Part shown: positions 7,681 to 64,000 of the stretch, piece after piece
Numbering within the stretch: position 1 is the stretch's first letter
Layout of the letters: the number at the start of each line of letters is the position of its first letter
From: Pseudofabraea citricarpa
Taxonomy: Eukaryota; Ascomycota; Leotiomycetes; Helotiales; Dermateaceae
DNA length: 64,000 nt
NCBI GenBank assembly: GCA_029641185.1
Contig: JAPWGK010000002.1
Coordinates: 2,170,001 to 2,234,000 of the forward strand
Direction: 5' to 3'
Notes under the pieces: model-generated
Told to the model about the DNA's origin: nothing
Seen by the model: only the letters and a program-made list of their open reading frames with translations
The model's database searches: none
Position numbers and translations under genes: made by a program

Positions 7681-7884
7681 TTTGGGTGATTGTTTATTAG
7701 CTAGAAGGTTGTGTTACCTGAACGTTTGTTTAGCGAGGTGATTGGTGAGAGAAGATAGGACTGGTAGGTTTTTTCTTCCTTTTTTGTCCATCAGCAGGCG
7801 GTAAGTATCTTGGGCGTACAAAGTAGAAAGTGGCAGCCAAGTTTATACGCCATTATTAATGTGTTATTCGGGAGAAACCAATTA

Positions 7885-34925: not shown

Positions 34926-37900
34926 TCAAGCCGCGGCGGCGCCGATGCCGAAAGCTGCGTTCCCGAGCGCCCGTTTGATCCGCGAGCTGAGACCGTTCAC
35001 CGGCAGCTTGATGCCGTACCCGAGGAGCGACGTCTGGAAGTAGAGCGGGATCGGGACGACGGGCGCACTGTCGAAGTGCAGACCGGCTTGGTCGAGGTAC
35101 AGAACCTCTCCGGTAGGGAAGCGGCGGGTCAGGACTCCCGAGCGGGTGTTCAGGATTCCATCGATCGAGACCGTGTTGCCTGAGAGGATGGCCTTGAGAG
35201 TTATAGTTGGCACGAATGTGTAGAGGACGGATCCGTCGAGCGCAAATGTGTATGTGAGTCTGCCGGCGGTTGTTACGAGCTGCCCTACGAGTGGGACGAT
35301 GGCGGGTGTTTGTGGGGTCGTGGGAAGCGTGGCACTCGGGAGAGCTGGCGAGAGAAGGCTAGGCACGATGCTGGGAAGAACTGCTGATGGGAGAGCGGTG
35401 GATAAGGCTCCTGGAAGTTTTGACAGCGAGGACAACGCTCCAGGGATGGCTACGGTGGGGAGAGTTGGATTGATCGTGGGTAGCGAACCTCCTAGACCAC
35501 TAGTAGGGATTGAGGGAATAGTTGTTGGAAGTGCGATTGAGGGTACAACTGATCCCAGAGATGGTACGTTTGCTGAGATGACTGGGAGAATTGGCACATG
35601 CAAAGAGAGGGTCGGCACCTGAATATTACTGAGTGATAGAGTCGGTAAGGCAGCATTCAAGGAGATCTTTGTGAGTGCCAAATCAGGGTTGTTGATAGGA
35701 GCCACAGATGGCAAGCTAGTTCCAACTGGAATTGACAATCCTGGAAGTAAAGGAGTCAGAGAAGGTAGAGCGGGTTGAATTGTTGGTAAGACTAGGCTAA
35801 GGCTTGGAAGACCTGGGGTGTTGACTCCAGTAGGCAAGTTGACGATGGTGTTCAAGAGAGTTGTGACAGGCGGAATAATATTCAGTGTAGGCAGCGACAA
35901 AGATAATCCAGGAGCACCTGCGCCTGGCGTGTTACCAGGGTTAGAGCCAGAGCCAGAGCCAGGAGTAGAACCAGATCCAGGGGTGGAGCCAGAGTCAGGA
36001 TCAGAACCCGAGCCACCATTTGATCCTCCAGAACCTGGAAGTAGGTTACCAAGAGAGATGGTTGGGAGAGCCGATGGCAAAATGCTTCCAAGGGAAATGG
36101 TAGGAAGAGTGACCTGAGGAGCCGAAGGCAGAACATTTCCAAGCGAGATGGTTGGAAGCGTAACCTGGGGAGCAGAAGGCAAAACATCACCGAGCTGCAA
36201 GGTGGAGAGCTGAAGCACGTTGCTTAATGTAGGCAGAGTGACTCCTGGCAATGAAACGCTTGGTATCTGGATTCTGCTCAAAGTTGGGATGGCGATGCCT
36301 GCAGGAAGAACCCGGGTTGGAAGCCCAGTCTGAATAGCATTTCCAAGTTCTGGCAATACATCCAGGTTGAGAGATAGGAAAGGTGGCAAAGAGACAGACG
36401 AAACCTGTGGCTGAGAAGCTCCCAAAGATGGCAAGGTAACTTGAGGTGCGGAGGCTGCAGGTAGAGTGACTTGGGGGACCGGAGGCAAAATATTGCTCAG
36501 TGTGAGTTGAGGTACAGTTGGAGCTGACAAACTGACTTGAGGTAGTGACACTGATGGCAGCGTAACCTGGGGCACTGGTGGCACTGACAGGCTCAAAGAT
36601 GGAACCGATGGCAGAGTGACTTGAGGAACAGGCGGCAGCGATAAACTCAATGAGGGTAGAGTAGCCTGTGGCACTGGTGGCACTGACAAGCTCAAAGACG
36701 GTACTGATGGCAGTGTAACCTGAGGAACTGATGGCAGCGACAAGCTCAAAGATGGCAAAGTGACTTGAGGTACCTGTGGTAGTGACAAGCTCAAAGAAGG
36801 TACTGACGGCAGGGTAACCTGAGGAACCGATGGCAGCGACAGGCTCAGTGAGGGTAGAGTAACCTGGGGCACTGGTGGAAGGGACAAGCTCAACGATGGT
36901 ACATTAATCTGAGGAACCGGCGGCACCGATAAGCTCAAGGATGGTACTGATGGTAGCGACAAACTCAGAGACGGCACAGTTGGTGGAGTGACTTGAGGAG
37001 CCGGTGGCAATGACAAGCTCAACGACGGTACATTAATTTGAGGTACTGGTGGTAGTGATACGCTCAAAGATGGGACCGTTGGGAGTGTAAATTGAGGAAC
37101 CGATGGTAGCGATAAGCTCAAAGAGGGAACCGTTGGCAATGACACACTCAAAGAAGGCACCGTAGGTAGTGTGACTTGAGGAACTGCTGGCAGCGACAAA
37201 CTTAGAGATGGCACCGTTGGGAGCGTAAACTGAGGAGCTGGTGGTGCCGATACACTAGCTTGAGGAACACTTGGAGCTGAGAGACTAATCTGTGGAAGAG
37301 ACAGCGATGGCAACGTAGGTTGAGGTACCTGAGGCAGCGATAAGCTCAAAGACGGGACCGTTGGTAATGACACACTCAAAGAAGGCACCGTTGGGAGCGT
37401 AAATTGAGGAGCTGGTGGTGCCGACACACTGACTTGAGGTGCTGATGGGAAAATGTTGCTCGGCGTAACTTGAGGGACAGTTGGAGCTGAGAGACTAATC
37501 TGTGGCAAAGACAGCGATGGCAGCGTAGGTTGAGGTACCTGTGGCAGTGACAAGCTCAAAGATGGTACAGTTGGGAGTGTAACTTGAGGAACTGTTGGAG
37601 CCGAGAGACTGATCTGTGGCAAAGACAGCGATGGCAGCGTAGGTTGAGGTACCTGTGGCAGTGACAAGCTCAAAGATGGTACAGTTGGGAGTGTGACCTG
37701 AGGAACTGTTGGAGCCGAGAGACTGATCTGTGGCAGAGACAGCGATGGCAGCGTAGGTTGAGGTACCTGTGGCAGTGACAAGCTCAAAGATGGTACAGTT
37801 GGGAGTGTAACCTGAGGAACTGTTGGAGCCGACAAACTGATTTGAGGCAGTGATAGTGACGGCAACGTAAATTGAGGTACTGGTGGTAGCGACAAGCTCA

Positions 37901-39488: not shown

Positions 39489-39575
39489 CTTGAGCAATGA
39501 AGAGGAGTGTGAAGGAGAGAGGAGGAGCTGGTTGATGATGCTCTACAGAAGCACATCTTGTTCTTCTTATACATC
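39489..39575 (-). promoter_or_regulatory. Core promoter of the LSLP-repeat gene
   Basis: A TATAAGAA box on the minus strand lies at about 39564-39571, about 80 bases before the ATG. A CTCCTCTCTCC pyrimidine stretch sits between box and start, which suggests strong expression. Confidence 0.45.
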
Positions 39576-43676: not shown

Positions 43677-44564
43677 TTAACAGGTCAAGTCGTAGATGGC
43701 GTTAAAGTTGGCATCCAAGACACCGAAAGATGGCGAGACGTTGTAGTCTTGGAGGACATACATGAATGTGTGGCCCTGCTCGAAAGCAGCACATCCAACA
43801 ACATCCCAGAATTGCTTTGCGTTTGCAACATTAGGAACGGCCTGGTTCTCGGTGGCTCCCGTAACAGGCCATCCAGTCTCAGTGACCCAAACCCAGGCTC
43901 CACTTCCAGCATTCTGCACAGTATCGCGGACTCTTTGGAGAGAGTCGAAGAACAAGTCAGCGGCGACATCGATGCTATTGGCCTCGGTGTTCTGGAAGTA
44001 TGGGTAGCCGTCGGTACCGACGAAATCGCAGGCCTTGATAACGGCAACGTTGGCTGGGTCGACCCAAGCGGTCCATGTATCGACGTGGCCAACAGCAACG
44101 TTGGTGCTGTATCCGGGTACGGTGCTTAACATACCACGGACATCGTAGATCTGCTGGGCCAACGTGTTGGCATCGGTATCTCCACGATATAAATCCTCGC
44201 TACCAACGCTGACCGAGACAATCCAGTCAAAGCCGTGAGTTTGAACTGCCGACAAGAGAGCTTGCTTCTCGGCATCGTAGTGAGCAGCGTCCTCGGTCCA
44301 CACACCAACAAGGAGAGTGGTTCCGGTGTTGAGAGCTGCGGGTACGGCATTGGCGAGGGTGTTGCAGTCTGAGGAAGCATATAGTCTGGCCGAGGTGAAA
44401 CCACCGGGGAGGGCAGCCATTGTTGTGAAATCTCTCTCCCAGTCGGCTTGTGTCTTGCAGGCTCCATCAGCAGATCTGGTAGCCGCAATGTTGAATCCCT
44501 TCCAGTAAGCATCTGCTCCGATGACAGTGGCTGCAAGAGCCAGGGCGTAAGAGGCGGTCTTCAT
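43677..44564 (-). CDS. Secreted GH17 beta-1,3-glucanase/glucanosyltransferase
   Basis: Acts on cell-wall beta-1,3-glucan. One exon, 295 residues: a signal peptide (about 1-19, MKTASYALALAATVIGADA) and then a complete TIM-barrel GH17 domain with no linker or GPI tail. The start KGFNIAATRSADGACKTQADWERDF is the fungal 'KGFN' form. The acid/base Glu lies in VSVGSEDLYRG and the nucleophile Glu in WVTETGWP, both in the expected order. The chain ends at IYDLTC. Size and layout match soluble, non-anchored Ascomycete GH17 enzymes of the Bgl2-like/EglC catalytic type. The strong promoter (next entry) suggests an abundant wall protein. Confidence 0.92.
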   Translation of the reverse strand: MKTASYALALAATVIGADAYWKGFNIAATRSADGACKTQADWERDFTTMAALPGGFTSARLYASSDCNTLANAVPAALNTGTTLLVGVWTEDAAHYDAEKQALLSAVQTHGFDWIVSVSVGSEDLYRGDTDANTLAQQIYDVRGMLSTVPGYSTNVAVGHVDTWTAWVDPANVAVIKACDFVGTDGYPYFQNTEANSIDVAADLFFDSLQRVRDTVQNAGSGAWVWVTETGWPVTGATENQAVPNVANAKQFWDVVGCAAFEQGHTFMYVLQDYNVSPSFGVLDANFNAIYDLTC

Positions 44565-44690
44565 GATGCTGATTGTGATGAGGATTAAGGAACTTGAACG
44601 ATTGTAAATAAGAAAATAGCGAGTGTGGGAGGTGAACGAATTGTTGGAGAGAGAAGGGGAGAAAAGAAGAGAATGCTCAGTTACTTATAC
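44565..44690 (-). promoter_or_regulatory. GH17 core promoter with TATA box and CT-rich leader
   Basis: GTATAAGTAA lies on the minus strand at about 44681-44690, about 120 bases before the ATG. A CT-rich leader (CTTCTCTTTTCTCCCC) follows at about 44640-44665. Confidence 0.5.
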
Positions 44691-45298
44691 TTATCCTCTC
44701 AAAGCCCCTGAGCCAACAGCCTCGTGAACAACGAACTATTGACAACAGCGCTGCACCTGCTGGCATTGTACGGATATTGAAGTCGATCATCGTCATAATG
44801 AGAAAACGAGGTCGAGTTTTCTTGCGGGCGAGATGCGATTTCCAGGGTCAGGGGAGCTCGGGAACTCTATATTTAGTTGTCGGCAGTGGCAGTGGGACGA
44901 ACGAATTACTTTCACGGCACGCGGAAGAATAATAAGCCCTGGAGCCTGGGGCCTGGTGGCCTGCAAACTCTCATCCATCAGCTCACCCTCACCTCACCCA
45001 ATACGAACTGAAGATATATTCTTTTCTCAATGTCATCGGCCATTCAACTGACGACCGACGTTGTGTGACAGAGGTTCTGTCATCCGATACTTCAGATGAA
45101 CCGATTTGCTTACAACAAAGCGATGAACTGCCGTCAATCGCACCCGCCTTACCAAGAATCATTTCGCCGAAGACGGAAGTCCAGAAGGTATCCACTCTTC
45201 CCTGCCTTACAAATTCCCATGTCATCCAGGCCTGCTGTGGTACAGTATATTTCCTTATAACACGGTAGGTTTCGATCTCCTTTCACAGCCATGCAGAG
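44691..45298. other. Divergent spacer GH17 / MFS transporter
   Basis: About 600 bases. Short frames only. The transporter's promoter must lie in the right half; no clear TATA box. Confidence 0.4.
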
Positions 45299-46891
45299 AT
45301 GGAAGAATTGAAGAAGGACGAAGGCGGCAGCGATGTCGAGCGACAATTAAAGGCCGAGCTTCCCTCATCGTCGAATTCTTCAGCCCACGACGATAACAAG
45401 CCTGCAGAACCACCGCTTCCACTCCTTCAAGAAATCGCCTTCGTGGCAACGGTTTGCTCTGCACAACTCCTCACGCAGGCCGGCCTGGGACAAGTCATCG
45501 CACCTCTCCACATTATCGGCGCCTCCTTCGATGTCACCTCTCCTGCTCAACTGAGTTGGTATGCCGCAGCATACTCTCTCACTGTCGGCACATTCATTCT
45601 TCCTTCGGGGCGATTAGGAGATGTGTACGGACACAAGAAGATATTTGTGATAGGATATGTGTGGTATGGGCTATGGAGTCTGATAGCAGGATTCAGCATA
45701 TACGTCAACTCGAATTACGGCGGCCATGTTTTCTTCTCGATATGCCGTGCTTTCCAAGGCATTGGACCTGCGTTGTTACTCCCAAATGCTCTCGCTTTAC
45801 TGGGAAGAGCATATCCCGATGGACGGAGAAAACATATGGTATTCAGTCTGTTTGGAGGTTGCGCGCCCAGTGGATTTGTGGTCGGTGCTGTATTCTCCAG
45901 CTTGTTCGCACAGAAGGCTTGGTGGCCATGGGCATACTGGACGATGGGAATCTTCTGCGCCGCCATGGGAGCACTCAGCTGCTTCACCATACCAACAGTC
46001 GACGAAGGTGAGTTCCGCCGAACAATCTCAAGAGGTGGCATTGGTTGGAAGGCGCGCTGGAATCATCTTGATGGTGCTGGTATGATCAGTGGTGTTTGTG
46101 GGCTTGTTCTCATCAATTTCGCGTGGAACCAAGGCCCGGTCGTTGGATGGTCCACGCCATATGTTTTTGTTCTGTTCATCATTGGCATTCTCATCATCTC
46201 TGGGTTTTTCTACATCGAGCATCAAGTTCCGAATCCCCTGGTTCCTGTACGTTCTTTATCCCGAGACACATTGTTCGTATTGGGTTGCATCGCAGCCGGC
46301 TGGTCATCCTTCGGTATTTGGGTCTTCTACCTCTGGCAATTCCTCGAACTAGAGCGACATGTTACTCCTCTTCTGGGCTCAGCCATGCTGGCCCCAACAG
46401 CTATTTCGGGTCTGACAGCATCCATCGCTTGTGGCTACTTACTCGGGGTTCTTGGTCCTCCGAAGATCATGTTATTATCGATGACAGCGTTCTGCCTCGG
46501 CAACATCCTACTGGCAACCGTACCGGTCAATCAGATATTCTGGGCTCAGACATTTGTTAGCATTGTGATCACGCCTTGGGGAATGGACATGTCTTTCCCA
46601 TCTGCGACAATCGTCTTGAGCAACTCGATGCGCCGCGAGGACCAGGGAGTGGCTGCAAGTTTGATCAACACGGTTGTCAACTACTCCATCTCCATCGGGC
46701 TCGGCATCGCGGGTCTCGCTGAAAGCAAGCTGAACGACGAAGGGAGAAACCTGCTCAAGGGGTACAGAGTCGCCTGGTATGTAGGTATCGGCCTTGCGGG
46801 CATGGGCATACTGATTTCGATTCTTTTTGTAATTTTAAGTAGAATCAAGCCGGAGAAGAAGGAGAAGGAGGGGCCGGCTAATGACGAATGA
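45299..46891 (+). CDS. MFS drug:H+ antiporter, ATR1-like (DHA2 type)
   Basis: A membrane exporter; relatives in yeast (Atr1) export aminotriazole and borate. One exon gives 530 residues. A hydrophilic N-terminal tail (about 45 residues, acidic) precedes about 14 hydrophobic segments. Signatures are LPSGRLGDVYGHKK (motif A between helices 2 and 3), RAFQGIGPALLLPNALALLGRAYP (helix 4, motif B region) and GCAPSGFVVGAVFSS in helix 5 (motif C type). HHH/short lysine-rich tail (KPEKKEKEGPANDE) at the C-terminus is cytosolic. It lies between the GH17 and the VAO-type oxidase; co-function is not evident. The substrate cannot be predicted. Confidence 0.88.
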   Translation: MEELKKDEGGSDVERQLKAELPSSSNSSAHDDNKPAEPPLPLLQEIAFVATVCSAQLLTQAGLGQVIAPLHIIGASFDVTSPAQLSWYAAAYSLTVGTFILPSGRLGDVYGHKKIFVIGYVWYGLWSLIAGFSIYVNSNYGGHVFFSICRAFQGIGPALLLPNALALLGRAYPDGRRKHMVFSLFGGCAPSGFVVGAVFSSLFAQKAWWPWAYWTMGIFCAAMGALSCFTIPTVDEGEFRRTISRGGIGWKARWNHLDGAGMISGVCGLVLINFAWNQGPVVGWSTPYVFVLFIIGILIISGFFYIEHQVPNPLVPVRSLSRDTLFVLGCIAAGWSSFGIWVFYLWQFLELERHVTPLLGSAMLAPTAISGLTASIACGYLLGVLGPPKIMLLSMTAFCLGNILLATVPVNQIFWAQTFVSIVITPWGMDMSFPSATIVLSNSMRREDQGVAASLINTVVNYSISIGLGIAGLAESKLNDEGRNLLKGYRVAWYVGIGLAGMGILISILFVILSRIKPEKKEKEGPANDE

Positions 46892-49997: not shown

Positions 49998-52423
49998 TTC
50001 GCCTAGAACAAACTTTTCGAACGATCGTAACGCTTTTCAAGTCTTATCGGGGCATCTCAGAAGTAGGAGACCCAGGTACAAGCTGCAGAGCATGGAAATA
50101 TATAGTGCTCACAGTTTTGGGGGACACGGCGGGGAACTGGCGGAACATGGCCGCGGGAGGTGCGAATGTGTGATATTCCCGATGCATCTGCTGGTTTATC
50201 CCATGCGGCTTCGATTTGTGCCTATCCTTTGAAATGTGGGGGACTGCTATGTCATCGCCGACTCGGTGCAGCAATCCTGGTTGTGATCTGTAAGTATGCG
50301 GAAGTAGGAAGTACCGCACCACCGCAACCCTTCATAAATAACCCACCTCCAATTAAGAATGTGGGGTCTTCCCGATCATCTGATCAACCCCACCATATCT
50401 CGCCCTTGCTCAACAAAAGTCGCTGAATATACTGTCTGATGAGATGTTTAAGAGCTGAGAAGAGATTGGGTTTGAATAGAATTCGTTGTGGTTTTTGTGG
50501 ATTGTTAAGTGAGGTTGGTGTGATTAGAACAAGGGCATCGGCAAACAAGCAACTAAACATTTATTGACAGAGCACATAACCGACAAGCATATTAAAGACC
50601 TTCAAGTTTATCTTTGGTTTTAAGTAGTTTGATTTGCTTCCTCTTATTATCCCGTGTCATATGATAAATCGTAAGGTCCAGCTATTTGTAGGAGAAACAA
50701 ATGTGGAGTGCATTCAATGGATGGCTTTCTGAATCACTTCCTACCATGTAGCACAATCATGTATAATACTATTTAAATACGATCATGATCATCCACCAAT
50801 ATATAAACTGGGACAAAACTAGACTTATGATAGGTTATGGTGGTCTTTTATACTTAAAAGAATTTAGTCATCTTTTTCAAACCATGCAGAATTTGCTTCC
50901 GCGGGTTACCCCAACTATAATTACATTAGATCCAACCAACCATGATTCTTCCTGTCATGCTTCTTCTACACGTAGTAGACTGCTTGAAAGCGTAGAATTA
51001 CAGATACAACGCGACAAAATCCATAATCTGTCATTTGCACATCGTTTCATTGGAAAATCTCCTATCGAATTACAAATAAGCAAAGTCTTGTGAAAGCAAA
51101 GGCAAGTTGAATCTATTTCAGTACCTTGTCTGCGAATTATAACATTTCATTTCCCGCACGTCTTCTAGAAGGGAGGTTGGAAAGCCCAGACAATTTTCTA
51201 AGCGTGGAGGGATTCAAGGACATTAAATTGCTAGTAGTTCTGATATCCTCTCCAAATCTTAAGCAGTCAATTATTACTATCGCTATCCGGTGATCTGTAT
51301 TACTCTCACTAGTGATGAAGTCGAGAAGCCTCGATCGTGGAAAAGGGTACCGGGCGATCTGCTGAAGGATTGAAAGACCCATGGAAAAATGTGCACTTGA
51401 TGAATCCTCTGGTCTTACAAGAAGAATGGAAAAGAAAATCATAATCTATAAATCGGGATGCGTTTTCTGTCGAGTTAAATACCTGCCCAGGTAAATAAGC
51501 CGATAAAACAACAAAAGAACTGAGGACTAACCACTTTCCTCTCGGTAAAACCATTTCCTGTCAGTAGATTGATTGTTATTATAGCGACAAACCAAAGTAG
51601 CCATGTGACTAGCTATGTAACGCGAGACTTCAAGAGTACATATCTATGTATATAGAGCTACTTCTTTCAATCAGCATCTACTATTTAATCTCTATTCGTT
51701 CTTTATCTCTTATTTCTAATTCTTTGTTATTTAAGCGAGCTAAGGTCTCTTCCATTCCTCTATTGCAAATACTTCTCTATATTGCTAACAAGATGGATAC
51801 TCCTAGATACCAGTGGAGTAATTTAGTACAAAGTTTCATTTTATTTTGTTTGCATTCTTCTTCCTCTTTCTTTTCGCCATACCCCGAGTATCTGATCGAG
51901 TTCTTCCGTTCAGAGGCTGGATCATCCAGCATTATAACAGTTTCAGAAAAGTGCATCTAGTTCGGTACGGATTGACCAAAGGCAACTAACCACCTGTGCT
52001 TGTATGAGGAAGGATTGTATGTATTTAGAATCAGACGTCGAAAGATAATAAACTGGGTAGGCAGCGGAAAATATCACAAGGAAAGCAAGAGCACCCTCTC
52101 CACACGCCCCGGCGGAGAGATTTGGTAGTGAATAATCTGGATTGAATAACTGATATGGTATCTTCTATAATGCACGGGCTATAAACAATATCCGACACAT
52201 CTCTGCATGTGCAAGCAGCAATCTAAGATAAGAGATGGTCGAGAACCTCGACTTCGTATCAAGAAATTACAACTTTTGTTCCGAGACAAAAGAAAAAAGG
52301 AAAGAGCAAAGAAAGAACACCCATGTGAATGCATTAACATTAAACGTTATGGTTTCCCCCCCCATGCTATGTATGCCATGCCCAACCTAGGCCATTATAA
52401 AAACATAAAAAACAAAGAAGAAT
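49998..52423. other. Gene-free, AT-rich 2.4-kb stretch
   Basis: Left part (49998-50560) is the promoter of the VAO gene. From about 50560 to 52060 the sequence is visibly AT-rich, with short frames on both strands and no motif, which could be decayed repeat or RIP-mutated DNA. No intact transposon gene, terminal repeat or tRNA was found. Confidence 0.45.
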
Positions 52424-53800
52424 CTACGCCTTGCTGCACTCCAGAAAGTTCCAGATATCCTTACAGCACGTATCGAGCGACTTCTTCGTCTTCCACTCGA
52501 GTTCCGTCTCAGCACGGCTCGGCATAGCCACGCAGATACCGACGTCACCCTCTCGTCGACCGGCCATATTGAGGGGGATCTTCGAGTCGGACACATTCTC
52601 GAGGGCGCCGACGACATCGAGGACCGAATGGCCCGTGCCACTGCCCAGATTATAAGTGCGGAAGCCTTTGGCGACGCGGCCATTGGACGCCGCAGCCAGA
52701 GCGGCGATATGGCCATGAGCCAGATCAGTGACGTGGATGAAGTCGCGGACGGCGGTGCCGTCCGGCGTCGGGTAGTCGGAGCCAAAGACGTTGACGGTTG
52801 GCGACTGGCCCGTCATGACCTTGACGACGACGGGCAGCAGGTTCGTCGGCGTGCCGCGCGGGTCTTCTCCCAGCAGGCCAGACTCGTCGCAGCCGACGGG
52901 GTTGAAGTAGCGCAGCGCGATGATGGTCCATTCCGGGTCGGCTAGCGCCAGGTCAGCCAGAATGGCCTCGCACATCCATTTCGTTCTTCCGTACGGGTTC
53001 GTCAGCCCTGAGCAGCCTCCGTCGATGGTCCGCGGCTGGCCGTCGTAGTCGACGAACGACTCCGTGGCGTGCGTGCAGTATTCTTCCCGCAGCGGGCGCC
53101 CTGAGTTGGCAATCGACCCGTATACGGTTGCCGACGAGGAGAAGATGAAGGTCTTGATGTTGAAGGTGTTAAGGGTGGAGCAGAACTCGACCATGCCGGC
53201 TACGTTGTTGGCGTAGTAACTTAGTGGATTCTTGATGCTTTCTGAAACGGATTTGTATGCGGCGAAATGGATCACGCCTTGGATTCTGGAAGTCACCGTG
53301 GCATCGTGGCTCGGTGCTGTGTTCAGCACCTGTGGTGTCTCCATGTACTGTTCCAGTATGTCTTTCATAGCCTTGGTGTCACGGTAGTCGGCTTCATGCA
53401 GGACCATGAGAGGTGCTGCCTCGCATCGTGTCTGGTAGAACTGGTTTACCAGTCTTTCGATCCGGTCATAGACGCCTCGGTAAGAATTGCTGAGGTTGTC
53501 GATGATGATGATGTTGTAACCGGCCTTCAATAACTCGAGACATGTGTGACTGCCGATATATCCAAGTCCACCCACTACTGCAATGTACTGACGGTCGGGG
53601 AGTAATAGGTCCTGGACCGAATCACAATAGATGGATGCATCCAAGGGTGTCGAGGCATCATGGTCAAAAACAGAACTCGAGCGAGAACACCTCAGCGATG
53701 AAGCCTCAGAATCCGAAGAAAGATCCAGCGAGGCATAATCTTCTGGGTCTGAGTGCAAGATCATCGGACTCGATGGCAGAGAGACGTGGTGGAAATCCAT
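52424..53800 (-). CDS. uge3: Uge3: UDP-glucose/UDP-GlcNAc 4-epimerase (GAG cluster)
   Basis: Interconverts UDP-Glc/UDP-Gal and, in A. fumigatus Uge3, UDP-GlcNAc/UDP-GalNAc, the precursors of galactosaminogalactan. One exon, 458 residues from the ATG at 53800 (a GTG further upstream is not used). An N-terminal ~70-residue Ser/Asp-rich extension precedes the Rossmann fold: GGLGYIG (77-83) binds NAD, IDNLSNSYRG follows, HFAAYKSVSESIKNP is the catalytic-face helix, SSSATVYG gives the catalytic Ser/Thr, and NPYGRTKW contains the YxxxK Tyr and Lys. LRYFNPVGCDESGLLGEDP and PDGTAVRDFIHVTDLAHGH are the GalE sugar-binding loops. GDVGICVA places Cys at about residue 423, aligned with the human GALE gate residue. 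Divergent from sph3, with 453 bases between starts. Confidence 0.93.
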   Translation of the reverse strand: MDFHHVSLPSSPMILHSDPEDYASLDLSSDSEASSLRCSRSSSVFDHDASTPLDASIYCDSVQDLLLPDRQYIAVVGGLGYIGSHTCLELLKAGYNIIIIDNLSNSYRGVYDRIERLVNQFYQTRCEAAPLMVLHEADYRDTKAMKDILEQYMETPQVLNTAPSHDATVTSRIQGVIHFAAYKSVSESIKNPLSYYANNVAGMVEFCSTLNTFNIKTFIFSSSATVYGSIANSGRPLREEYCTHATESFVDYDGQPRTIDGGCSGLTNPYGRTKWMCEAILADLALADPEWTIIALRYFNPVGCDESGLLGEDPRGTPTNLLPVVVKVMTGQSPTVNVFGSDYPTPDGTAVRDFIHVTDLAHGHIAALAAASNGRVAKGFRTYNLGSGTGHSVLDVVGALENVSDSKIPLNMAGRREGDVGICVAMPSRAETELEWKTKKSLDTCCKDIWNFLECSKA

Positions 53801-54253
53801 TAGGTCGAAGTGAAGCACGTGAAGAATATTAGGCGAGGTATGTAAGAAATTCTTTGGAATGAGAGACGACCGACTTTACTTAAACTCTCTAGACCAAGGA
53901 ACTGTGATCCCTGAAAGTCAAAGTGCCAAAGGTAGCGATGACTGGAGGACAATTAAGTAGCCGTTCCCTAGGAGATCTCGGGGCCGGGGAGACACGAGGA
54001 TCGACGTTGCTTTGGGAAGTGTTTGTAAGGCTTGTTGTTTCGCATCATCTCAACGCCCCTATAGGTATATATATATATAGCGGCTGAATAATTTCAAGCT
54101 AGATATTTTCTCTTCTCGCCTCCGAGCCAGACTTGTATCCATTTTCTTGCCTGCAACCTTGGCATGATCGTTCGTGCATAAAGCCAAAAGAGCCGTCCTT
54201 CCTCTTCTCGCTCACGGCTCAACACGAAACAACACCGGAGCACGTTTTCTCTC
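53801..54253. promoter_or_regulatory. Bidirectional uge3-sph3 promoter
   Basis: The 453-base gap must serve both divergent genes. A TATATATATATATAG run lies at 54065-54079, about 180 bases before the sph3 ATG. Co-expression of the pair is expected from this layout. In A. fumigatus the cluster is controlled by MedA, StuA and SomA; no specific binding sites are claimed here. Confidence 0.5.
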
Positions 54254-55326
54254 ATGACTTCCCTAGACGCCATTCGCCGTTCAAAGTTCTGGTCACGCAA
54301 GTACCTCCTGGGTCTACTCCTGGCAGTGGTTATTATAGCTATTGTGGTTCCCATTGCGGTCGTATTTGGAAGGAAGAAGGGAAGCTCGACAAGGTCCGAT
54401 GTCCTTGTGCCTCTCTATGTGTATCCAGCACCTGGAGCATGGGATCCCTTGTTTACAGCGTAAATTACCATTGAGTTTTATCGTTTTTGGTTCTTGTCAG
54501 GACTAACAGTCCATAGTGTAGAGGAGCACCCTGGTCTTCACTTCACGGTCGTAGTGAACCCAGCCAGCGGGCCTGGCCAGAGTGGACCCGATTTGAACTA
54601 CACGAGAGAGATCCCTAGGTTGAATGCTTATGCCAATGTGCGCACTGTTGGATACGTTTCGACCAACTACACCTCCAGAGCAATCGATTTAGCGCTCGAA
54701 GATGTCCGCACATGGGCGACATGGTCGGACAACCCCGACCAAAATATCTCCATGCACGGCATCTTTCTCGATGAGGCTGTTTCCCTGTACGAAGAGACTA
54801 GCTTGCAATACTATGGGCAGATTGCCTCATCAATATGGTCAAGCAGTGGACTTGGTCGTGATCCTTTGGTGAGTCCTACCCCGGTGCCAGTCGAACGACT
54901 GCCAATATCATGAGGCTTTCGAGGGGTCCAGTGGCATCATAGTCGATGCGCTTAAAGCAGCAGCCCTCGCTTCCAGTTGAAAGAATTAACAGAGATCAGA
55001 TAATACACAACCCTGGCGTGATCCCTGACGAGCGCTACCTCGCATTTTGCAACCTTACCATAGCGTTTGAGGGCAGCTACTCCACCTACCAGATCCGTGA
55101 CCACTCAAGAGCCGTCTCGGAGTTTAGTAAATCGTCCAAGTACGGTCGAGACTACTTCGCCTCAATCGTCCATGGAGTTCCCTCCGGCATATCGAGGAAG
55201 GATGAGAAGGCCTTTGTCAAGGATGTACGATCGTCTAGTGGTAGTGTCTTCATCACTGGGTTGACGATCGATTACTACTCCAGCTTTTGGTCTGGATGGC
55301 TAGGATTTGTAGACGACTTGGCGTGA
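54254..55326 (+). CDS. sph3: Sph3: membrane-anchored spherulin-4 GH135 glycoside hydrolase
   Basis: Endo-hydrolase that cleaves partly N-acetylated galactosaminogalactan; in A. fumigatus it is required for GAG production. Three exons (54254-54459, 54517-54868, 55000-55326) give 294 residues. An N-terminal basic stretch and a hydrophobic anchor (about 17-38, YLLGLLLAVVIIAIVVPIAVVF) make it a type II membrane protein. The catalytic TIM-barrel begins with LVPLYVYPAPGAWDPLF, the spherulin-4 start. The acidic pair in HGIFLDEAV (D154, E155) and the Glu in IAFEGSY (E210) fit the catalytic residues D166, E167 and E222 described for Aspergillus Sph3. IIHNPGVIPDERY and ITGLTIDYYSSFWSGWLGFVDDL complete the domain. 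The second intron (131 bases) is the least certain junction. Confidence 0.9.
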
Positions 55327-56326
55327 GGTTTTTGGCAGGTAAACAGGACAGGCTAAGCGTTGGAACCATTGCGTCTACGAGTATGCGACTGGTAGAGCTT
55401 AGGTTAGTGCCAAGTTGGGGTTTTGGGGGTTGTTAGATTTTTCACAATTGCATGCTGCCATTGGAAAACTCAGTTTTGTCGGTGAAAAAGTAGCTTATAT
55501 CCGCGATTCCAGGGATGGACAAGGACTTTGTTGACAACAATGCACTCGTATATGCACTCTCCGATCACAATCGTGGAGACCCAAGAGCCAAGGGGTAGAC
55601 TTTTGCCAGGATGCTTGAAGTTTGGCTCCTGATATTTGTAGGGTTAGCGAGTGCCATGGAACTGGTCGTTGAGCCCCTGCCAGTCAAACGTTTTTAGTCG
55701 GCTGGCTCTGGGGCTTTTGCAACCGCCGCCTCTCCCCGAGCCCCTCCCGCCAAGCGACCGCTTAATTGTGGTGTCACTGGTGTGTGTTGTCTTGAGCTTC
55801 TGAGCCTCGTGTCTATTTTAGGTAAGTAAGTTTGAATGACTGATCTTGTGCTGGAAAGAGACTTAGCCACCACTTGGCCATGGCAAGCATGGAGCGACAA
55901 GTCAATCTCAACAACCTCAAAGCCTTTCTAGAACCCCAAAGCGCCCACAAAAGCTCGGATGAAGGGTGCTCAAGCATCGATTTGTGCTGGGCAGACTGGG
56001 TTCCTCTCTTTCGCTCACCCTGAATCACGGCGTCTAGCCTTTATTGTCCAGCCTCACGAGCCTGTCAGCTCTTGTTGTCGCCATAAGAGCATGCTCGTTG
56101 CTTGACGTGTTTCCACCACCAAGAAAACACTCTCCGGAGCGGGGGAATTCCTGGCTCGGTCCTCTCTCGTTTTTTTCCTTTCCACATTTTTCTCCAACAC
56201 GGCGGCATCTTTACTCCTTTCTCACCTCACCCATCTCACCTCTTTCTGCATACCTACACGCACGCCGGTGCCCCCAACCGCCCAGCACCCAAGCAGACCA
56301 GACAGCCAGTATCCACCGCGTCGAGG
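55327..56326. other. Spacer between sph3 and ega3
   Basis: About 1 kb with the 3' end of sph3 and the promoter and leader of ega3. A CT-rich tract (CTCTCTCGTTTTTTTCC) lies near 56160-56190. An open frame runs into ega3 from 56102, but it lacks an ATG before 56327. Confidence 0.45.
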
Positions 56327-57367
56327 ATGTCGGCATCGTCATTCTCGCACTCGTCCTCACCCTCGCCCACCAGACACGACCACGGCGGCAGCGACATGAA
56401 GGCAGCGACAGGAGCACCGTCGTCGTCGCCGTCCTGGCTGGCTCAGCGGACGAAGAAGTTCTGGATAGCCGTGGGGATCCTGCTAGCGATCGCGATCGGA
56501 TTGGGAGTGGGGCTGGGGGTCGGATTGACCCAGGGACAAGGCGACGATGATTCTGATAATGATTCCGGATCCGGCGGCGATGCGGGCAGCACGCCATCCC
56601 CACCACCAAGCAACAACACCAATGCCACATCGGGCGATTTCTGGAGACCCGCCGCGTCGGAATCCTGGCAAATCGTGCTCGGCTACGCGTTAAACGACAG
56701 CTCGGCCAGCGTGAGCGTCTACGACATCGACCTGTTCGACAACTCGGCCGCCACCATCCAGGCGCTGCACGACCAGGACCGCCGTGTCATCTGCTACTTC
56801 TCCGCCGGCAGCTACGAGGACTTCCGCCCGGACTCGAGCGACTTCGAGAAGAGCGACTATGCGAAGCCGCTCGATGGCTGGCCCGGCGAGTACTGGCTCA
56901 ACACGAACTCCACCAACGTGCGTGGTATTATGACTAAACGGCTGGCCTTGGCTGCTGAGAAGGGCTGCGACGGCGTGGATCCGGACAATGTGGACGGCTA
57001 CGACAACGACACTGGCCTGGATCTCACCACGGCCGACGCCGTCGACTACCTGACCTTCTTGGCCATTGGAGCCCACAGCCTCAACATGTCCATCGGGCTC
57101 AAGAACGCCGGCAGCGTGGTCAATGCTACGCTCCCCATGATGCAGTGGGAGGTCAACGAGCAGTGTGTGCAGTACGACGAGTGTGAGCTCTTCCAGCCCT
57201 TCATCCAGGCGGGCAAGCCCGTCTTCAACATTGAGTATCCCAACTCGGCACCCTCCATCAGCCAGACCACCAAGGACAGAGCGTGTGGAGATGGCGATGC
57301 CTCGACTCAAGGATTCTCATCCGTCCTCAAGGAGATGAATTTAGGCAACTGGGTGGAATATTGCTGA
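56327..57367 (+). CDS. ega3: Ega3: membrane-anchored GH114 endo-alpha-1,4-galactosaminidase
   Basis: Cleaves alpha-1,4 galactosamine stretches of galactosaminogalactan. One exon, 346 residues from the first ATG in the frame. A Ser/His-rich cytosolic tail (1-40) precedes a transmembrane anchor (about 44-68, with GLGVGLGVGL) and an acidic Gly/Ser/Pro linker (70-105); the catalytic domain is thus luminal or extracellular, as in A. fumigatus Ega3. The GH114 barrel starts at SWQIVLGY; RRVICYFSAGSYEDFRPD (152-169) and GCDGVDPDNVDGYDN (213-227) are the two strongest family motifs and carry candidate catalytic Asp residues. MSIGLKNAG and PVFNIEYPN follow. Two Cys near the end (320 and 346) could pair. 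Same strand as sph3. Confidence 0.9.
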   Translation: MSASSFSHSSSPSPTRHDHGGSDMKAATGAPSSSPSWLAQRTKKFWIAVGILLAIAIGLGVGLGVGLTQGQGDDDSDNDSGSGGDAGSTPSPPPSNNTNATSGDFWRPAASESWQIVLGYALNDSSASVSVYDIDLFDNSAATIQALHDQDRRVICYFSAGSYEDFRPDSSDFEKSDYAKPLDGWPGEYWLNTNSTNVRGIMTKRLALAAEKGCDGVDPDNVDGYDNDTGLDLTTADAVDYLTFLAIGAHSLNMSIGLKNAGSVVNATLPMMQWEVNEQCVQYDECELFQPFIQAGKPVFNIEYPNSAPSISQTTKDRACGDGDASTQGFSSVLKEMNLGNWVEYC

Positions 57368-58507
57368 GCAGCGTGAAAAAAAGAATGTCATAGTTAATTA
57401 TAAACCTATAGTACCTAATCAATGAATACCACATACACTTACACTTCTGCTTCTTGCCACCATCATGACGACGATGACGATGACGATGATGGGACATAGA
57501 GGAACCCGTGAAGGACCAACCGAGATTCGCTGCCTCCTTCGCGTGAAGAGAAAAGGCAAAAGGGAGAAAGCTATGGTAAAGTGATCAAACTCAATCGGGC
57601 TCCATACGGACTATCTTTCGATTTCTCCTTTCTTTTTTTCTTTCTTTTTGGGTTTGCTTCTCTCTCTATACGACACCCGACGAACCCACCAACCCAACCC
57701 ACTCTCTCCATCTTGCAGCAACCCTGCAGGACCCTGATCGCGAGCCCTGTTCTCCGTACGGAGTACAGTATCGATTCTCTCCTTTATGCGTGCGGCGCCT
57801 CTCCTCTCCGATCCATTCGGTAGTACGGTACTGTACCTGGGCATCCCTGTTTTGCGTGACCTGAGATCTACACAAGTCGAGGACGGTACAGTATCGATTC
57901 TCTCCTTTATGCGGCGGCAAGGCTCAAGGCTCAAGGCTCAGGCTCAAGCACGCTCACAAACTCACGAGCCCTCTCGGCCGGCTCATCCCTGCGCCAGCGC
58001 TTCCCAATCGGGTGCTATTTTCGTTTCAGGGCAAAGCCAAAATCAAGTTTTGGCAACCATCAGAAAGCTTGAGTTTTGCTGCGGTGCGTAGTTACTGCAC
58101 AGGTGTGGTGCAGTTGGTTGGCATGCCCTTGTTGCAAGATTTCAAGATTTGGGGGAAAGGTTAAGGTTGGTTGTTGTGGACCTGTGGTTGGCGAGGGACA
58201 GTAGCTAAGGCAAGGGTACAGTACAGTAGGAATGGATGCTACAGTAGTGCACGGTACATTATTATGGTAGGATATGATAAACTCTGTTTGTTCATTTCAT
58301 TACTGTACGCTGAGCTTGCTAAAAAAGTAACGCTGCAAAGAAACCATGCTGCTGCCATGCTGCTAATATTATTACAGTCACGAGATTATGTATTATGCTT
58401 TTTGTCTTTTCTTCTTTTTCCCGTTCCCCGTTCCTTTTGGCGCCGCTTGGAAGAATGCGCGCGCGTTGCTGCCCCCATCCGTCGCTATACCGTACATATT
58501 CCTTTTA
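57368..58507. other. Convergent spacer ega3-agd3 with direct repeat
   Basis: About 1.1 kb between the ends of ega3 and agd3. It carries a 27-base exact direct repeat (57764-57790 and 57887-57913, beginning TACAGTATCGATTC), a CTCCGTACGGAG palindrome at about 57753-57764, a CGATGA microsatellite near 57467-57490 and several TACAGTA motifs near 58200-58260. No gene was recognised. Confidence 0.5.
57764..57913. repeat. 27-base exact direct repeat, 123 bases apart
   Basis: The copies at 57764-57790 and 57887-57913 are identical (TACAGTATCGATTCTCTCCT then TTATGCG). A perfect CTCCGTACGGAG palindrome abuts the first copy. The origin is unknown. Confidence 0.85.
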
Positions 58508-61156
58508 TTAGTACGCGATGGCTGTCGCCAGCTTGAATGACACGGGGGATCCAGACATGTTGACCCAGATGGTCAGTGGATCCGACCCGATCTGCTCGGT
58601 TGTGTGCCCATCAGTGCTGGTCACAGTGCCTGGCACCGTGACGGGGATGGCGGCGCTGCATGTGTTGTCGTTGGTTGTCAGTGTGACGCCCGTGATGGTC
58701 TTGCTGGCTTGGTCGACCGTCCATGTGAGCTTTGGAGCACAGTTGTCTCTCACGACACGACCAGCGAATGCTGCTGCGATCTGTTTCGGACTGTCAGCGC
58801 TGTATCATTCAGCGTGTGCGCTTTCATGTCTGTACTTACATCGTCGTGCTTCAAGCTGATAAGAGGCCAGTCAGTAAGTCGGACCATTTCTTGCGCAACG
58901 GTCTCAACCCAGGCTTGGATCAGAGATAGCTTGGCTGACTCGCCGTTGATGGTCGTGGTGCCTGCTGTGACATAGTTCAGGTTGGCCTGATGGAACATGA
59001 AAGGATCACGTCGGAGACCAAGAAGATGGCGCGTGTTGGTGTTCTTCTCCAAGGCGAGGAGAGTGTCCCAGTCTCCATTGCCAGCGGAAGTATCGATCCA
59101 CTCCTGAACTGTGCAAGCAGGAAGGTCACACTGTCCGTGTCAGTAAAGTACAGCCAATTCATTTAAGAGAATGCATACGTTGTAGTAGATGTTAGTGGCC
59201 CAGCGAGGTGTGATCTGGATTCCAGCGAAGCCATGTTGCTCTTCTGTGGTAATAAGAGGCCAGTGCTCATTTTGCTGCCAAGGTGAATTAGTAACTAAGT
59301 CATGAAGTGGACTAGGTTCAACTAACAGTATTCAAGAGTGCTGGTCTGGTATTATCTCCGACAACGTTTGTGATACCGTTCTCCTTCCATGCCCTGAGAG
59401 CATCTCCGTTGTTTAGACCGGTGATAGCAGGGGGGATTATGCCTAGGGGACTGAACTTGGTCGCTTGGGAGATCCCACTCTGGGTAAGCCATGCTGTGTT
59501 CCAAGAGATCTCGCGAGAAACATCAAAGTATGTCGCATTGTTCTCGTCCTCATGGGTGAAGGTATGAGACAGATGCGCAAAGGCGTTGAGATTATCGGCC
59601 GTGGAGAACCAAACCTTAAGGGGATCCAGATTCAGACAAGTCGTCGTATACGGATAAGAGTCAGGGGTCGAGGGCCAGAGGTTCACGCCAGTGCCAAGAG
59701 GTTTCTTCCACTCGAGTGGAGTGTCAATTTGCTCGTCATACTCGATTGGGCCGATGCCGCACTGAGTCCCGTCGTTTGCGTTCTCGGCGGCCTAATCGCG
59801 TTAGCAATCGTCAACAGTTAAGCTTTCGAGTATTATTCTCACCTCGATGTTGCCGTTGCCGTTGTGTCCAATTTCCAGGAAGTATACACTCCCGGCCGGC
59901 AGCTTCCTGTTCAGGGCGGTCGTCCAGGTTCTATGATTGTCCAAGTCGGCTGTCGTAATTCTATAGTTGGTGTCTACGGGTCTATAGAGAGCAGATTCGA
60001 GAAACATATCATCAACTACAGGAAAATAACGAAGATTAGCCGGAAGTCAGATATATGCTTTGGATGGAACCACGAACCTTGTGTCCCAAGATTGACTCGA
60101 CGGTAACCGGTGTCTGCAATTATTAGCATCTCTGCTCGGATTCCGAACATGGAACGTTGAAATCTTACAGAGGCCTCTGGTAGCCCAGTGGATCCATGCA
60201 TGTTGGAGGTAGTTGGATGCTTGAGCCCACTCTGTTGCCCAGCTTATGAAGAACACCATCTGGGATTGCGTTAGTAACGATGCATCCTCATCTGAAATAT
60301 ATTAACTACTTACTTGTTGTCGATCTCCAATAGTGTTGATGACGCCGGCAGTCGAGTCGGTTGTCAAAGTAGCAGCCGGAGCAAAGGACGCAAACTCAGT
60401 CGCAATGGAGTCATTGGTGATAGAAGCTGGATAATGCCAAAGACCTGAAGTACTGACACCAGCTCCACTGCAAAACAATTAGCCTCTGCATGCGGGTAAA
60501 GTAGAAACAAGCACTTACACTTTCAATCCTGCAGTAGGGAATTCATCCGTGTTGGAAATGCTGACGAGCTGCTCAACTCCGGTTTCACAACATCCACCCA
60601 ACGTTGTAGTGCCGAAATCTGGGCCCGGGAAGACGTCAATTCTGACCATTCGCACGCCGAAATCAATCTGGTACTGGTATAATTGTGCCCATTGTTCGGC
60701 AGTCAAGGCACTTTGGAACCCCAAGGTTTCGCCATAGTTGTAGCTGACTTCAGAGAGGACAAGAATGGCTCCGTAGTTACCAGTTGATCCTGTGCTCAGT
60801 TCAGGGAGCGTTACTCCCTCTTGAGGTACAACGACCACCTGGTAGGGAATTGCGTAGCCATTCAATCCACTATAAGCAGAGTACGCAGAGGCAGTATCTC
60901 GTGCGAAGATTAAAACTGTGCTCTGGACATCGGTGGCTGCGACAGCAACAGCAGCTGGTTCGGCAACATCTAGACTGGTTGTTGTTGTATTTGCCTGTAT
61001 GGTAAGCCCGTTGACTTCTGCCGCTGCAAGAGGTACATCAGGTGATGCTGCAACCGTGACTTCTTGGGCGGTGGTGTCCTGGCGGCGGTGATGGCCGGGG
61101 TGTGCTGTGACAACGGTTGCAGCAAGTGCGAGCAGCACGGAGGCGGAAAACTTCAT
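58508..61156 (-). CDS. agd3: Agd3: secreted galactosaminogalactan deacetylase (CE18)
   Basis: Removes acetyl groups from GalNAc in GAG, giving the positive charge that makes the polymer adhesive. Nine exons fit: 61156-60519, 60467-60314, 60259-60169, 60113-60078, 60015-59843, 59791-59327, 59274-59179, 59130-58840, 58780-58508, giving 738 residues; A. fumigatus Agd3 has about 800. A signal peptide (about 1-18) is followed by a short propeptide and the N-terminal domain (STVLIFARDTASAYSAYSGLNGYAIPYQVVVVPQEG), a hallmark of the family. The middle has WATEWAQASNYLQHAWIHWATRGLYTGYRRVNLGTQ. The NodB-like catalytic region has HLSHTFTHEDENNATY (His at about 437, 440 and 444), the metal-binding H-x3-H. 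The C-terminus is beta-rich (CBM-like), ending AYstop. Exon 4 has a non-consensus GTTCGT donor. Confidence 0.92.
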
Positions 61157-63144
61157 GGTGAAAATACACGAACCGTACTGTTCACTGAAGAAGTCGGGCT
61201 GGAAACAATAGAAGTCGTAGAAACGGCGTCAATGTCCTGAACATTCCATCCAAGACTGGCTGGCACCACGGCTTCATAAGGGAAGCCCTTCAGAATACGA
61301 TATGCCCAAGTGGAGGCCGCAAAGGCCAACACGAGGACCTAGTTCATGCCAGTGGCACCATAAGAGATTGTCCAAAATGCGTAGTAAGCCTACCATACTT
61401 GGTCTTCTATTTCTGGCTCGTCAAGAAAATCGAGATCTCTGCCGCAGGGAAGTAGATTCAGTAGCGAGGTCTCGGCAAGTAAAGTGCGAAGCGACGGTCG
61501 GTGAGTACAGTAGTGTGCGTTGTCCATCATCCTGCAGGCAATAATAATCACGAAAAACGACCGTATTTCTCGTGTCATAGCACTGACCCAAAGGGTCTTT
61601 GGCTGTCCGGAAGTGGCGTTGCACGGTTATCATATGGTTGTCGAGTTAGGCATAGGGGCACCCTGGCCTGTGTGATGCGGGGAACATCGAGGTGGTAGTG
61701 TGATGGTGGTGGTAGAATTCCCCGAGGTGTGATGCCGTGGCGGTACTACTACTGTACCTTGCCTTAGACCCCCATGGCGTTAGAGGACCCCGATATGAAC
61801 CGGGTTGCAATTATCTACAGTAGCATGTACAGTAAGTAAGCTAGAACGTGGGGCTTTACTTTCGGTGCATTGGGACTGGAGCTGGGACTGGGGCTGGGGC
61901 TGGCAGTTGGGAGTAAAGGCAGCGAGTGTTTCTGCTTGCTCTAAATCACCGCAGTTCTAGCGACTAATAGGGGAACCAAGCCAAGCGAGCGGAACGCCCG
62001 GCTACAGTAGCCAACGCCAACGCCAACGCCAACGCCAACGTCAACGGTCGACTGTCTTTAGCGAGAACAATGCAATTCTCTCCTTTCAACCTTTTTTTGT
62101 GCGCACTTCCAACTCTCCAACTCCCCAGACCTCCTAATGGCCAAAACACCTACACCATCCCTCCCTACTACTACCACTACCACTACTGCATTTGCCCCTC
62201 TGACTCTGCCACCTTCTGATCCATAAGTTGCGGAAGTCTCTTACAATGCCCTACCGTCAACCAACCATGGTGGATCCTTGGCTGGCTACTGACTATGAGC
62301 CGACAACGGGTCGGCGGCAATTGACACAGAGCAAGACGGCTCGCTCCAGACGAAGAGCACGACCTTGTATTTCGTGCGATAATCCCGGCATGTGCACAAT
62401 TGAGCAATTCGGATCACTGCCCCAGCCGTACCCTCGGAATCCCGCTACAAGGCCCCCTCCAGAGCCAAGATAGCTTCATAGCACCATGTTCGCTTTCCCT
62501 TGTCATCATCCTACAGTACAACGCACGAGCTTCTGCATGCCCACGTCAAAGTTTTGCTACTTGGAGCATACCTTCTGTCATCGAATGCTCGTTTCGTGTT
62601 TGCGGCCTTCTAGTGAGCCAAGCTCAAACAGACCCTTCTGCATGTATGAGATGCATGATTCGAGGTTAATCAATACGAGTTCTGCTCCGTCGATACAATG
62701 GGTGATCCCAAGACTGGCCCAATCCCTGAAAATAGTAACTTTCTGCAGCTTTAGCAACTTGCTTGTCAAGTCATGGGTCTGAAAGTCAGCCGTGTCAATC
62801 CCGTCACTTGCCTTCCTGCTTACAATTTCTCATTCGCATGTGTTTCTCTGTCTCTCTGTGTCAACGCCTCCCCAATCGATAGTCGAGAGTTGAACTGGTG
62901 ATTTACCAAGAGCTTTCACTCAGCACACATGTTCACTTAGACACGAAGGAAAGATCCTGGCTCCGTGCCGTCCTATCATCTCGTCATTCTTTATTTCTTC
63001 CTCGGCCTTCAGACTTGCCACAAGGCTGAACTAGGTTTGATGCTTGCCCCGCCGGTCTTCAACAACTGTACCCGTCTGTCTTTATCCAGTCTGTAGGAAG
63101 TTGTCTTTGGAGAGTGAAATTGGTTGATAACCAAGGACGCAAAC
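61157..63144. promoter_or_regulatory. Two-kilobase divergent promoter agd3 / gtb3-position gene
   Basis: No gene supported. It contains a (GCCAAC)n repeat (62010-62046) next to GCTACAGTAGCC, a GGGACTGGAGCTGGGACTGG-type repeat near 61875-61910, and scattered TACAGTA/TACTGTA motifs (61750-61840). The open frame near 62228-62473 has no recognised content. The unusually long spacing suggests complex control of both genes. Confidence 0.45.
62010..62046. repeat. (GCCAAC)n hexamer repeat
   Basis: About six units in tandem, the last diverged to GTCAAC; adjacent to the palindrome GGCTACAGTAGCC at 62000-62012. Confidence 0.8.
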
Positions 63145-64000
63145 ATGGCCAACATCACAGGCGTACATGCCGGATCAGGACGTGAACTGGTCCAGCATTG
63201 GTGGCAATGGGTAAGCTTCCTCGCCCTTACGAATAACATGTAATTAATTTTTTTCAGGTTCTACTTGGTCTTACTTTTGGATCCGTCTTGATCGGATCTA
63301 GCTACATCATATATTCAGTGGTCCGAAAGCTCAGAAGGAGGATCGCGTCAAAGGTATGGAGTTGAGGTCGAAGCATTTGAGTTGTGTGTGATCTGTAAAC
63401 TAATATATCCGAATACTAGGATGGCCCTTCTAAAGCACTCGCGGCTAAAGCTTCATCCCATCTACAGAAATATGCTGGCTCGCGATCTCAATTGACCTTA
63501 GAGAAATCCGAGAAACAACGGCCGACTTCACTGGCAGTCTACCTCGGCGCGTTTGATGCGCCAAATACATTTGCACAAACGCGATTGCTATCCACCCACG
63601 ATACAATAATTCTCAACCCACTGGAGAAAAATGTTATGAGTGTAGTTTTAGAACTTCGACAAAATGCTGGAACACCCATCAACTTGATTGGTAGACTTGA
63701 TCTGGAGACGATATTGAAGGTTTCGCAAAGTGACAGTACCAAGGAAATGGAAACGTCTCTTATCACCGGCTTAGACGAGATCATGACTATTGTAACATCC
63801 CGATTTCAGGACTCTTTCACAGCCATATTACTTGCTGGCTGGGAAACCCTCCCAACCTCAATATTCATTGAGCTTAGCGATGTACTTTCTACGCTGGGGC
63901 TCGGTGTATACTTGGAAACTTCTGCCCCCGACTTTTTGAAACAGTCAACAATCCTGGGAGTTGAATCAGTGACTGGAATCGTGATTAGAAATGGTCTGAT
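63145..64000 (+). CDS. gtb3: 5' part of large membrane protein in the Gtb3 glycosyltransferase position (cut by window end)
   Basis: In A. fumigatus Gtb3 is the multi-domain membrane glycosyltransferase that polymerises GAG. Visible exons are 63145-63210, 63258-63353 and 63420 to beyond 64000. The N-terminus is short and luminal or cytosolic, followed by one transmembrane helix across exon 2 (WVLLGLTFGSVLIGSSYIIYSVV, about 22-44) and a basic stop-transfer (RKLRRRIASK). A soluble domain then starts (PTSLAVYLGAFDAPN, TIILNPLEKNVMSVVLELRQ, LIGRLDLETI, IMTIVTSRFQDSFTAILLAGWE), alternating strand and helix as in a TIM-barrel. The GT4 domain, if present, lies past the edge. The assignment to gtb3 is from cluster order, not from catalytic motifs. 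Divergent from agd3. Confidence 0.6.

Follow-up and report, generated by a model that had tools for sequence, protein, structure and literature searches.

Sequence evidence for a complete galactosaminogalactan cluster in a helotialean fungus, with a second, strongly diverged locus in the same genome

The 64,000-nucleotide stretch analysed here (the window) comprises bases 2,170,001-2,234,000 of contig C12, in an assembly of 43.98 Mb and 43 contigs. Near its end begins what is, with high confidence, a complete helotialean biosynthetic cluster for galactosaminogalactan (GAG), an adhesive sugar polymer familiar from many moulds. We base this reading on gene content, gene order, domain content and catalytic residues, which together bear out the initial annotation of the locus as a GAG cluster. 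The genes uge3, sph3, ega3, agd3 and gtb3 adjoin over positions 52,424-72,453 in the order of Aspergillus fumigatus, with gtb3 extending 8.4 kb beyond the window. The order uge3-sph3-ega3-agd3-gtb3 had already been proposed, and both Pfam and our gene models agree with it. The cluster had also been called complete. All five genes are present, but the window itself holds only 856 bases of gtb3, and completeness comes from the contig beyond it. The claim that this is the published A. fumigatus order is matched by the locus tags of four genes in PMC4817252 (3G07910 for uge3, 07900 for sph3, 07890 for ega3 and 07860 for gtb3). Genes for an epimerase, a GH135 protein, a GH114 protein, a CE18 deacetylase and a glycosyltransferase thus lie side by side. 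In A. fumigatus, agd3 lies between ega3 and gtb3.

Exon models were built with a small dynamic-programming gene finder on the window and the contig beyond it, and were corrected by comparison: agd3 gained one short exon, and gtb3 gained one that two homologues showed to be missing. The models are self-built and not transcript-verified; all five modelled proteins are free of internal stops (Table 1). The pair uge3/sph3 is divergently transcribed, and so is agd3/gtb3. Pfam assigned the open frames of the four other genes in the window to their expected families, and found no domain in the gtb3 open frame there, which covers only the beginning of the gene. A scan for StuA-like motifs returned 0, 0, 3 and 0 sites in the four intergenic regions, all three in 57368-58507 (ega3/agd3) and none in the two divergent regions, compared with 45 in the whole window. 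Shared regulation is therefore neither supported nor contradicted by this uninformative motif scan.

Table 1. Coordinates of the cluster features (positions in the window unless a contig is named)
Feature	Position	Strand	Basis and remarks
AT-rich flank preceding cluster	50001..52423	none	GC per 1-kb bin
uge3, UDP-glucose 4-epimerase family	52424..53800	-	one exon, 458 aa; Pfam Epimerase 2e-37
uge3/sph3 intergenic, 453 bp	53801..54253	none	gene models; presumed shared promoter
sph3	54254..55326	+	gene model; 3 exons, 294 aa
sph3 exon 1, short tail and hydrophobic anchor	54254..54459	+	gene model
sph3 exon 2, GH135 barrel first part, GIFLDE motif	54517..54868	+	Spherulin4 6.8e-38
sph3 exon 3, GH135 barrel second part, conserved Glu in IAFEGSY	55000..55326	+	Spherulin4 4.7e-18; 5c5g alignment
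ega3, GH114 endo-alpha-1,4-galactosaminidase	56327..57367	+	one exon, 346 aa; GH114 1.6e-87
agd3, CE18/CBM87 GAG deacetylase	58508..61156	-	9 exons, 738 aa; three Agd3 Pfam domains
agd3 exons	58508-58780, 58840-59130, 59179-59274, 59327-59791, 59843-60015, 60078-60113, 60169-60259, 60314-60467, 60519-61156	-	
agd3/gtb3 intergenic, about 2 kb	61157..63144	none	gene models
gtb3, GAG synthase	63145..72453 (window part to 64000)	+	13 exons, 2880 aa; window and contig beyond
gtb3 exon 2, N-terminal transmembrane helix, then basic cluster	63258..63353	+	hydropathy
gtb3 N-terminal (beta/alpha)8 barrel	63471..64325 (window end 64000)	+	
Second locus	contig C9, 1,066,498-1,089,536		ega3b(-), agd3b(-), uge3b(-), gtb3b(+), sph3b(+), ega3c(-), agd3c(+)

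The four smaller proteins resemble characterised enzymes in detail. Uge3 has about 70 residues ahead of its epimerase domain and its best PDB matches are UDP-glucose 4-epimerases (E 3e-85). In the sequence alignment one of its Cys residues meets a Cys of 3enk which, from the human and E. coli enzymes, we take to be the substrate-gate position; this would fit a UDP-GlcNAc-permissive site, and Uge3 may act on UDP-GlcNAc too. Whole Sph3 matches the solved structure 5c5g (E 4.9e-68). Its Glu222 is kept, and Asp is kept at both 166 and 196, the catalytic Asp being printed as 196 in PMC12054363. Ega3, with an N-terminal hydrophobic anchor, aligns to 6ojb (1.7e-92) and 6oj1 (about 2e-92) and keeps the catalytic pair D189/E247, 58 residues apart. 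Agd3 starts with a signal-peptide-like N-terminus and carries CBM87 (3e-59), CE (5e-70) and C-terminal (3e-29) Pfam domains; residues 77-737 align to 6nwz (E 1.2e-265). All six catalytic residues published for Agd3 are conserved (D377 as base, D378, H510 and H514 at the metal, R613, and H668 as acid). Its best match among those listed is a Phlyctema vagabunda protein (74%). Since the best Gtb3 match (Cadophora gregata) is helotialean as well, the host is probably a Leotiomycete related closely to Phlyctema. A predicted protein of Cudoniella acicularis combines all Agd3 domains with GH114, either a fusion or a merged agd3/ega3 model. The initial annotation had considered that the enzymes might be closer to paralogues than to cluster members. 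The PDB entries matched by Agd3, Ega3 and Sph3 are instead the cluster enzymes of A. fumigatus or A. clavatus.

The occurrence of the cluster outside Aspergillus had been presented as noteworthy, a view that is not supported, as surveys and knockouts cover other Pezizomycotina. Lee et al. (2016, PMC4817252) surveyed more than 250 fungal genomes and detected the GAG cluster in 28. Knockouts or characterisation are published for Metarhizium (PMC8224951), Neurospora (PMC11356417) and Verticillium (PMC13245733), and in these three reports the orthologous clusters make GAG when tested. Metarhizium and Neurospora have the same five functions, with deletions affecting GAG (PMC8224951, PMC11356417), although gene order and orientation differ in Metarhizium (PMC8224951) and a sixth small gene belongs to the Neurospora cluster (PMC11356417). 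With the A. fumigatus cluster (PMC4817252), the locus shares the five families, their order and the catalytic residues. It differs in belonging to another fungal class, in an agd3 without serine-rich stretch and in the second locus of its genome. By itself the cluster extends a known pathway to a further host. More unexpected are the very different second copy of the system and a synthase that resembles pieces of the bacterial Pel biofilm machinery within one chain.

The enzyme activities and the polymer are taken over from published work on orthologues. By that analogy, Uge3 would make UDP-galactose and UDP-GalNAc, which the GT4 domain of Gtb3 would polymerise on the cytosolic face, while the Gtb3 membrane block would pass the chain through along a presumed transport path. 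Sph3 and Ega3 would be anchored by their N-terminal helices with the barrels outside, a predicted topology, and would cut acetylated and deacetylated stretches. Secreted Agd3 would remove acetyl groups, rendering the polymer cationic and adhesive. This fungus may make GAG and use it for adhesion or aggregation. Since the genome has a second locus, the window cluster could also be silent or specialised.

Further information came from the synthase. The initial annotation had allowed for a last gene devoid of a glycosyltransferase domain; the extended gene encodes both membrane helices and a GT4 domain (Pfam Glyco_trans_1_4, 3e-13) near the C-terminus of Gtb3. For this Pfam scan and for the homologue search, a 2832-residue version without the added exon was used. 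The best match, a Cadophora gregata protein, is 59% identical over 99%, Aspergillus sequences are about 45% identical, and in 55 of 62 homologues the alignment spans 90% of the query or more. Lysine and arginine are commoner after the N-terminal helix in 55 of the 56 rows that have such a helix (65 rows tested). In structure models of parts of Gtb3 outside residues 357-814 and 1396-2179, the barrel fold is nearest to GH191 and PelA and the membrane block matches MOP transporters. For the Asp and Glu expected at the active site of a GH166, GH191 or GH114 galactosaminidase, a strand count of the Gtb3 barrel gives mostly A/G/Q/N/S/R at the end of strand 4 and an invariant Asn at that of strand 6.

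With the bacterial Pel system Gtb3 shares a PelF-like glycosyltransferase, a barrel fold nearest to GH191/PelA and a predicted MOP fold. That Gtb3 and PelF correspond functionally, both being synthases, has been pointed out before (PMC9030451). Three Gtb3 homologues, the window protein not among them, scored 58.9, 75.0 and 86.8 bits, under the NCBIfam PelF cut-off of 100; PelF was nevertheless the best model in each of the three. Profile comparison by hhalign of the fungal synthases with PelF (22 fungal rows, window Gtb3 included) gave 99.93% over 415 columns, and homology spans the DUF3492 and GT4 halves. DUF3492 exceeded its cut-off of 23.3 in all three deep-clade homologues scanned (25.6-43.8 bits) and was not seen by Pfam in window Gtb3 at E 0.1. 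For PelG, hhalign gave no profile signal in Gtb3 (0.24% and below). In this Gtb3 differs from Pel, its likeness to the MOP fold coming from the fold model, compared with MOP transporters rather than with PelG. In a tree of the glycosyltransferase domain with bacterial PelF as outgroup, fungal rows stand together and Taphrina falls outside the deep clade described below; owing to the very long PelF branches and to this placement of Taphrina, the tree does not settle the origin of the domain.

We tentatively suggest, as something possible rather than likely, that Gtb3 may unite an entire Pel-type synthase and exporter in a single polypeptide. It would consist of a PelF-type glycosyltransferase, a MOP-fold channel and a cytosolic, probably non-catalytic galactosaminidase-type barrel, perhaps holding the nascent chain. 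As part of the same suggestion, the fungus would possess two machines of this kind, which belong to anciently separated lineages and are each accompanied by their own deacetylase and hydrolases, and may make two different cationic polymers. Among the open-licence papers listed, we found no report of a Pel-type domain map for Gtb3, nor of two GAG clusters in one fungus.

Bacterial operons containing agd3 have been published, with transfer between bacteria and fungi discussed (Bamford et al. 2020, PMC7229062), so agd3-pelF-sph-ega operons are not new. The words PelF and PelG are absent from the main text of PMC7229062. In Kocuria and Streptomyces, an Agd3-like deacetylase, a PelF-type glycosyltransferase, a membrane-type protein, spherulin-4 and GH114 adjoin; the transferase and the membrane protein are separate genes there, whereas the fungal synthase is one chain. 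On the plasmids of both genera, PelF is flanked by a large gene, a second unnamed gene, which we take as the membrane protein, spherulin-4 and GH114. By best Pfam domain the large gene is Agd3-like in Kocuria (2e-5, just below the cut-off), Thermus (3e-7) and Deinococcus (1e-17); for its Streptomyces counterpart, which is 43% identical to that of Kocuria, Pfam returned no match. A scan of bacterial genomes with an Agd3-like alignment returned 421 relatives, and the best 80 of the 421, all Streptomyces, were kept. Within the stretch covered, PelF accompanied 76 of these best 80, spherulin-4 68 and GH114 52; at the 60 loci of at least 20 kb among them, the numbers were 60, 60 and 48. These neighbours were counted with self-made profiles at E 1e-15, partly seeded with Streptomyces. 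On the Kocuria rosea plasmid NZ_CP126484.1, typed as mobilizable, the set of Agd3-like gene, pelF, unnamed gene, spherulin-4 and GH114 (2517-11585 of the retrieved stretch) lies between two copies of one transposase, of the same accession and on opposite strands, an arrangement resembling a composite transposon that carries a GAG-like operon.

The second locus lies on contig C9, and its gene models are free of internal stops, those of agd3b and gtb3b depending on the intron penalty chosen. Identity to the window proteins is 30% for Gtb3, 35% for Uge3 and 33% for Sph3, 55% (ega3c) and 36% (ega3b) for Ega3, and 59% (agd3c) and 43% (agd3b) for Agd3. The sph3b model has no obvious membrane anchor. 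Elsewhere in the genome, the search placed Spherulin4 on C9, C16 and C17, Agd3 twice on C9, GH114 twice on C9 and once on C41, Uge3-like proteins on C9 and C27 and a Gtb3-like protein on C9. The counts of other places for Agd3 (2), Spherulin4 (3) and GH114 (3) are lower bounds from the best candidates scored. The C27 protein is 37% identical to window Uge3 and, with 35% for that of C9, neither paralogue is close. Genes outside both loci encode Spherulin4 (C16:206020-206826 and C17:134425-134958) and GH114 (C41:1437578-1438321, 51% identical to ega3 and 56% to ega3c).

The tree of Gtb3 was computed with FastTree on 51 rows, 49 chosen from 68 homologues plus the two of this genome. Window Gtb3 lies inside the clade containing Aspergillus and Botrytis sequences. 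There it belongs to a 6-row clade (support 100) with Cadophora gregata, Rhynchosporium, Lachnellula willkommii, Diplocarpon and one Mollisia copy; the sister is a 16-row Leotiomycete clade with Botrytis, Erysiphe and the other Mollisia copy. The second-locus gtb3b, whose homologue search gave 6 proteins only, falls in a deep 10-row clade (100) with Taphrina, Dactylellina, Aureobasidium, Fusarium, one Venturia copy, Coleophoma crateriformis, Claussenomyces and two unnamed proteins, nearest to C. crateriformis and Claussenomyces. In this tree Mollisia scopiformis is thus represented in both Leotiomycete lineages, Venturia effusa by one canonical and one deep-clade copy, and the present host by the lineage of the window plus a deep-clade copy. 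An Agd3 tree, from 57 of 120 listed homologues (703 found) plus three rows of this genome and rooted on agd3b by choice, puts window Agd3 beside Phlyctema a in a clade with Leotiomycete Agd3, agd3c beside Phlyctema b (86% over 736 columns) and agd3b on a long branch (1.69). The trees group window Gtb3 and window Agd3 with cluster members. Among the matches listed, counting only species with comparable tags, gtb3 and agd3 have adjacent locus tags in at least seven species: Sclerotinia sclerotiorum, Ciborinia, Cudoniella, Lachnellula suecica, Paecilomyces lecythidis, Penicillium verrucosum and Cirrosporium. In Glutinoglossum the two tags differ by 5 and in Monilinia vaccinii-corymbosi by 175; the deep-clade gtb of C. 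crateriformis and the agd3 listed for it come from contigs of different length.

As an alternative, the window cluster could be a Leotiomycete-specific duplicate (lineage I) with a changed product, of other sugar ratio or acetylation, another cluster making ordinary GAG. The well-supported 6-row clade beside the main Leotiomycete clade, with one M. scopiformis copy in each, would fit such a duplicate, as would the second full locus in the same genome. So would a window Agd3 without the serine-rich stretch that agd3c has and that is reported for A. fumigatus Agd3. However, at the catalytic positions checked the proteins match the canonical enzymes and no sequence feature indicates another sugar, and we consider a changed product unlikely. 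Much less probable still is a cluster in decay that persists by chance, with the second locus carrying the function: with two loci one could be dispensable, but no stop interrupts the five modelled frames across about 20 kb, their splice sites fit and the catalytic residues are conserved. That the five genes are chance neighbours from unrelated pathways can practically be dismissed for, although epimerases occur elsewhere in the genome, the Agd3, Spherulin4 and GH114 families, with at least two, three and three other places, all recur at the second locus, and published synteny in other fungi (PMC4817252) contradicts it.

A GAG cluster thus remains the preferred reading of the locus. In the Metarhizium paper (PMC8224951), GAG chain elongation and export are called elusive and the patchy distribution of the cluster is left open. 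The predicted domain map of Gtb3 (barrel, MOP-fold block, PelF-type transferase) would offer concrete domains and a bacterial machine for comparison. With two complete, deeply diverged loci in one fungus, the question of whether GAG systems differ in their polymers could be addressed within one organism, and loss and duplication may help explain the patchy distribution.

Upstream of the cluster, the AT-rich stretch described by the initial annotation was confirmed: GC is 0.423 in the 50-51 kb bin and drops in the next (51-52 kb) to 0.386, the minimum of 64 bins (maximum 0.600). A laccase gene had been noted as well, and a frame with a multicopper oxidase domain, as a laccase would give, is found at 4136-5323. 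Other frames of the window carry Omp85 (13545-14792), fungal transcription factor (29569-30741), GH17 (43677-44684) and MFS transporter (45269-46891) domains. A 1538-codon open frame on the minus strand (34926-39542), with no Pfam match, sits in a strong GC skew of 0.27 to 0.35 over 35-39 kb.
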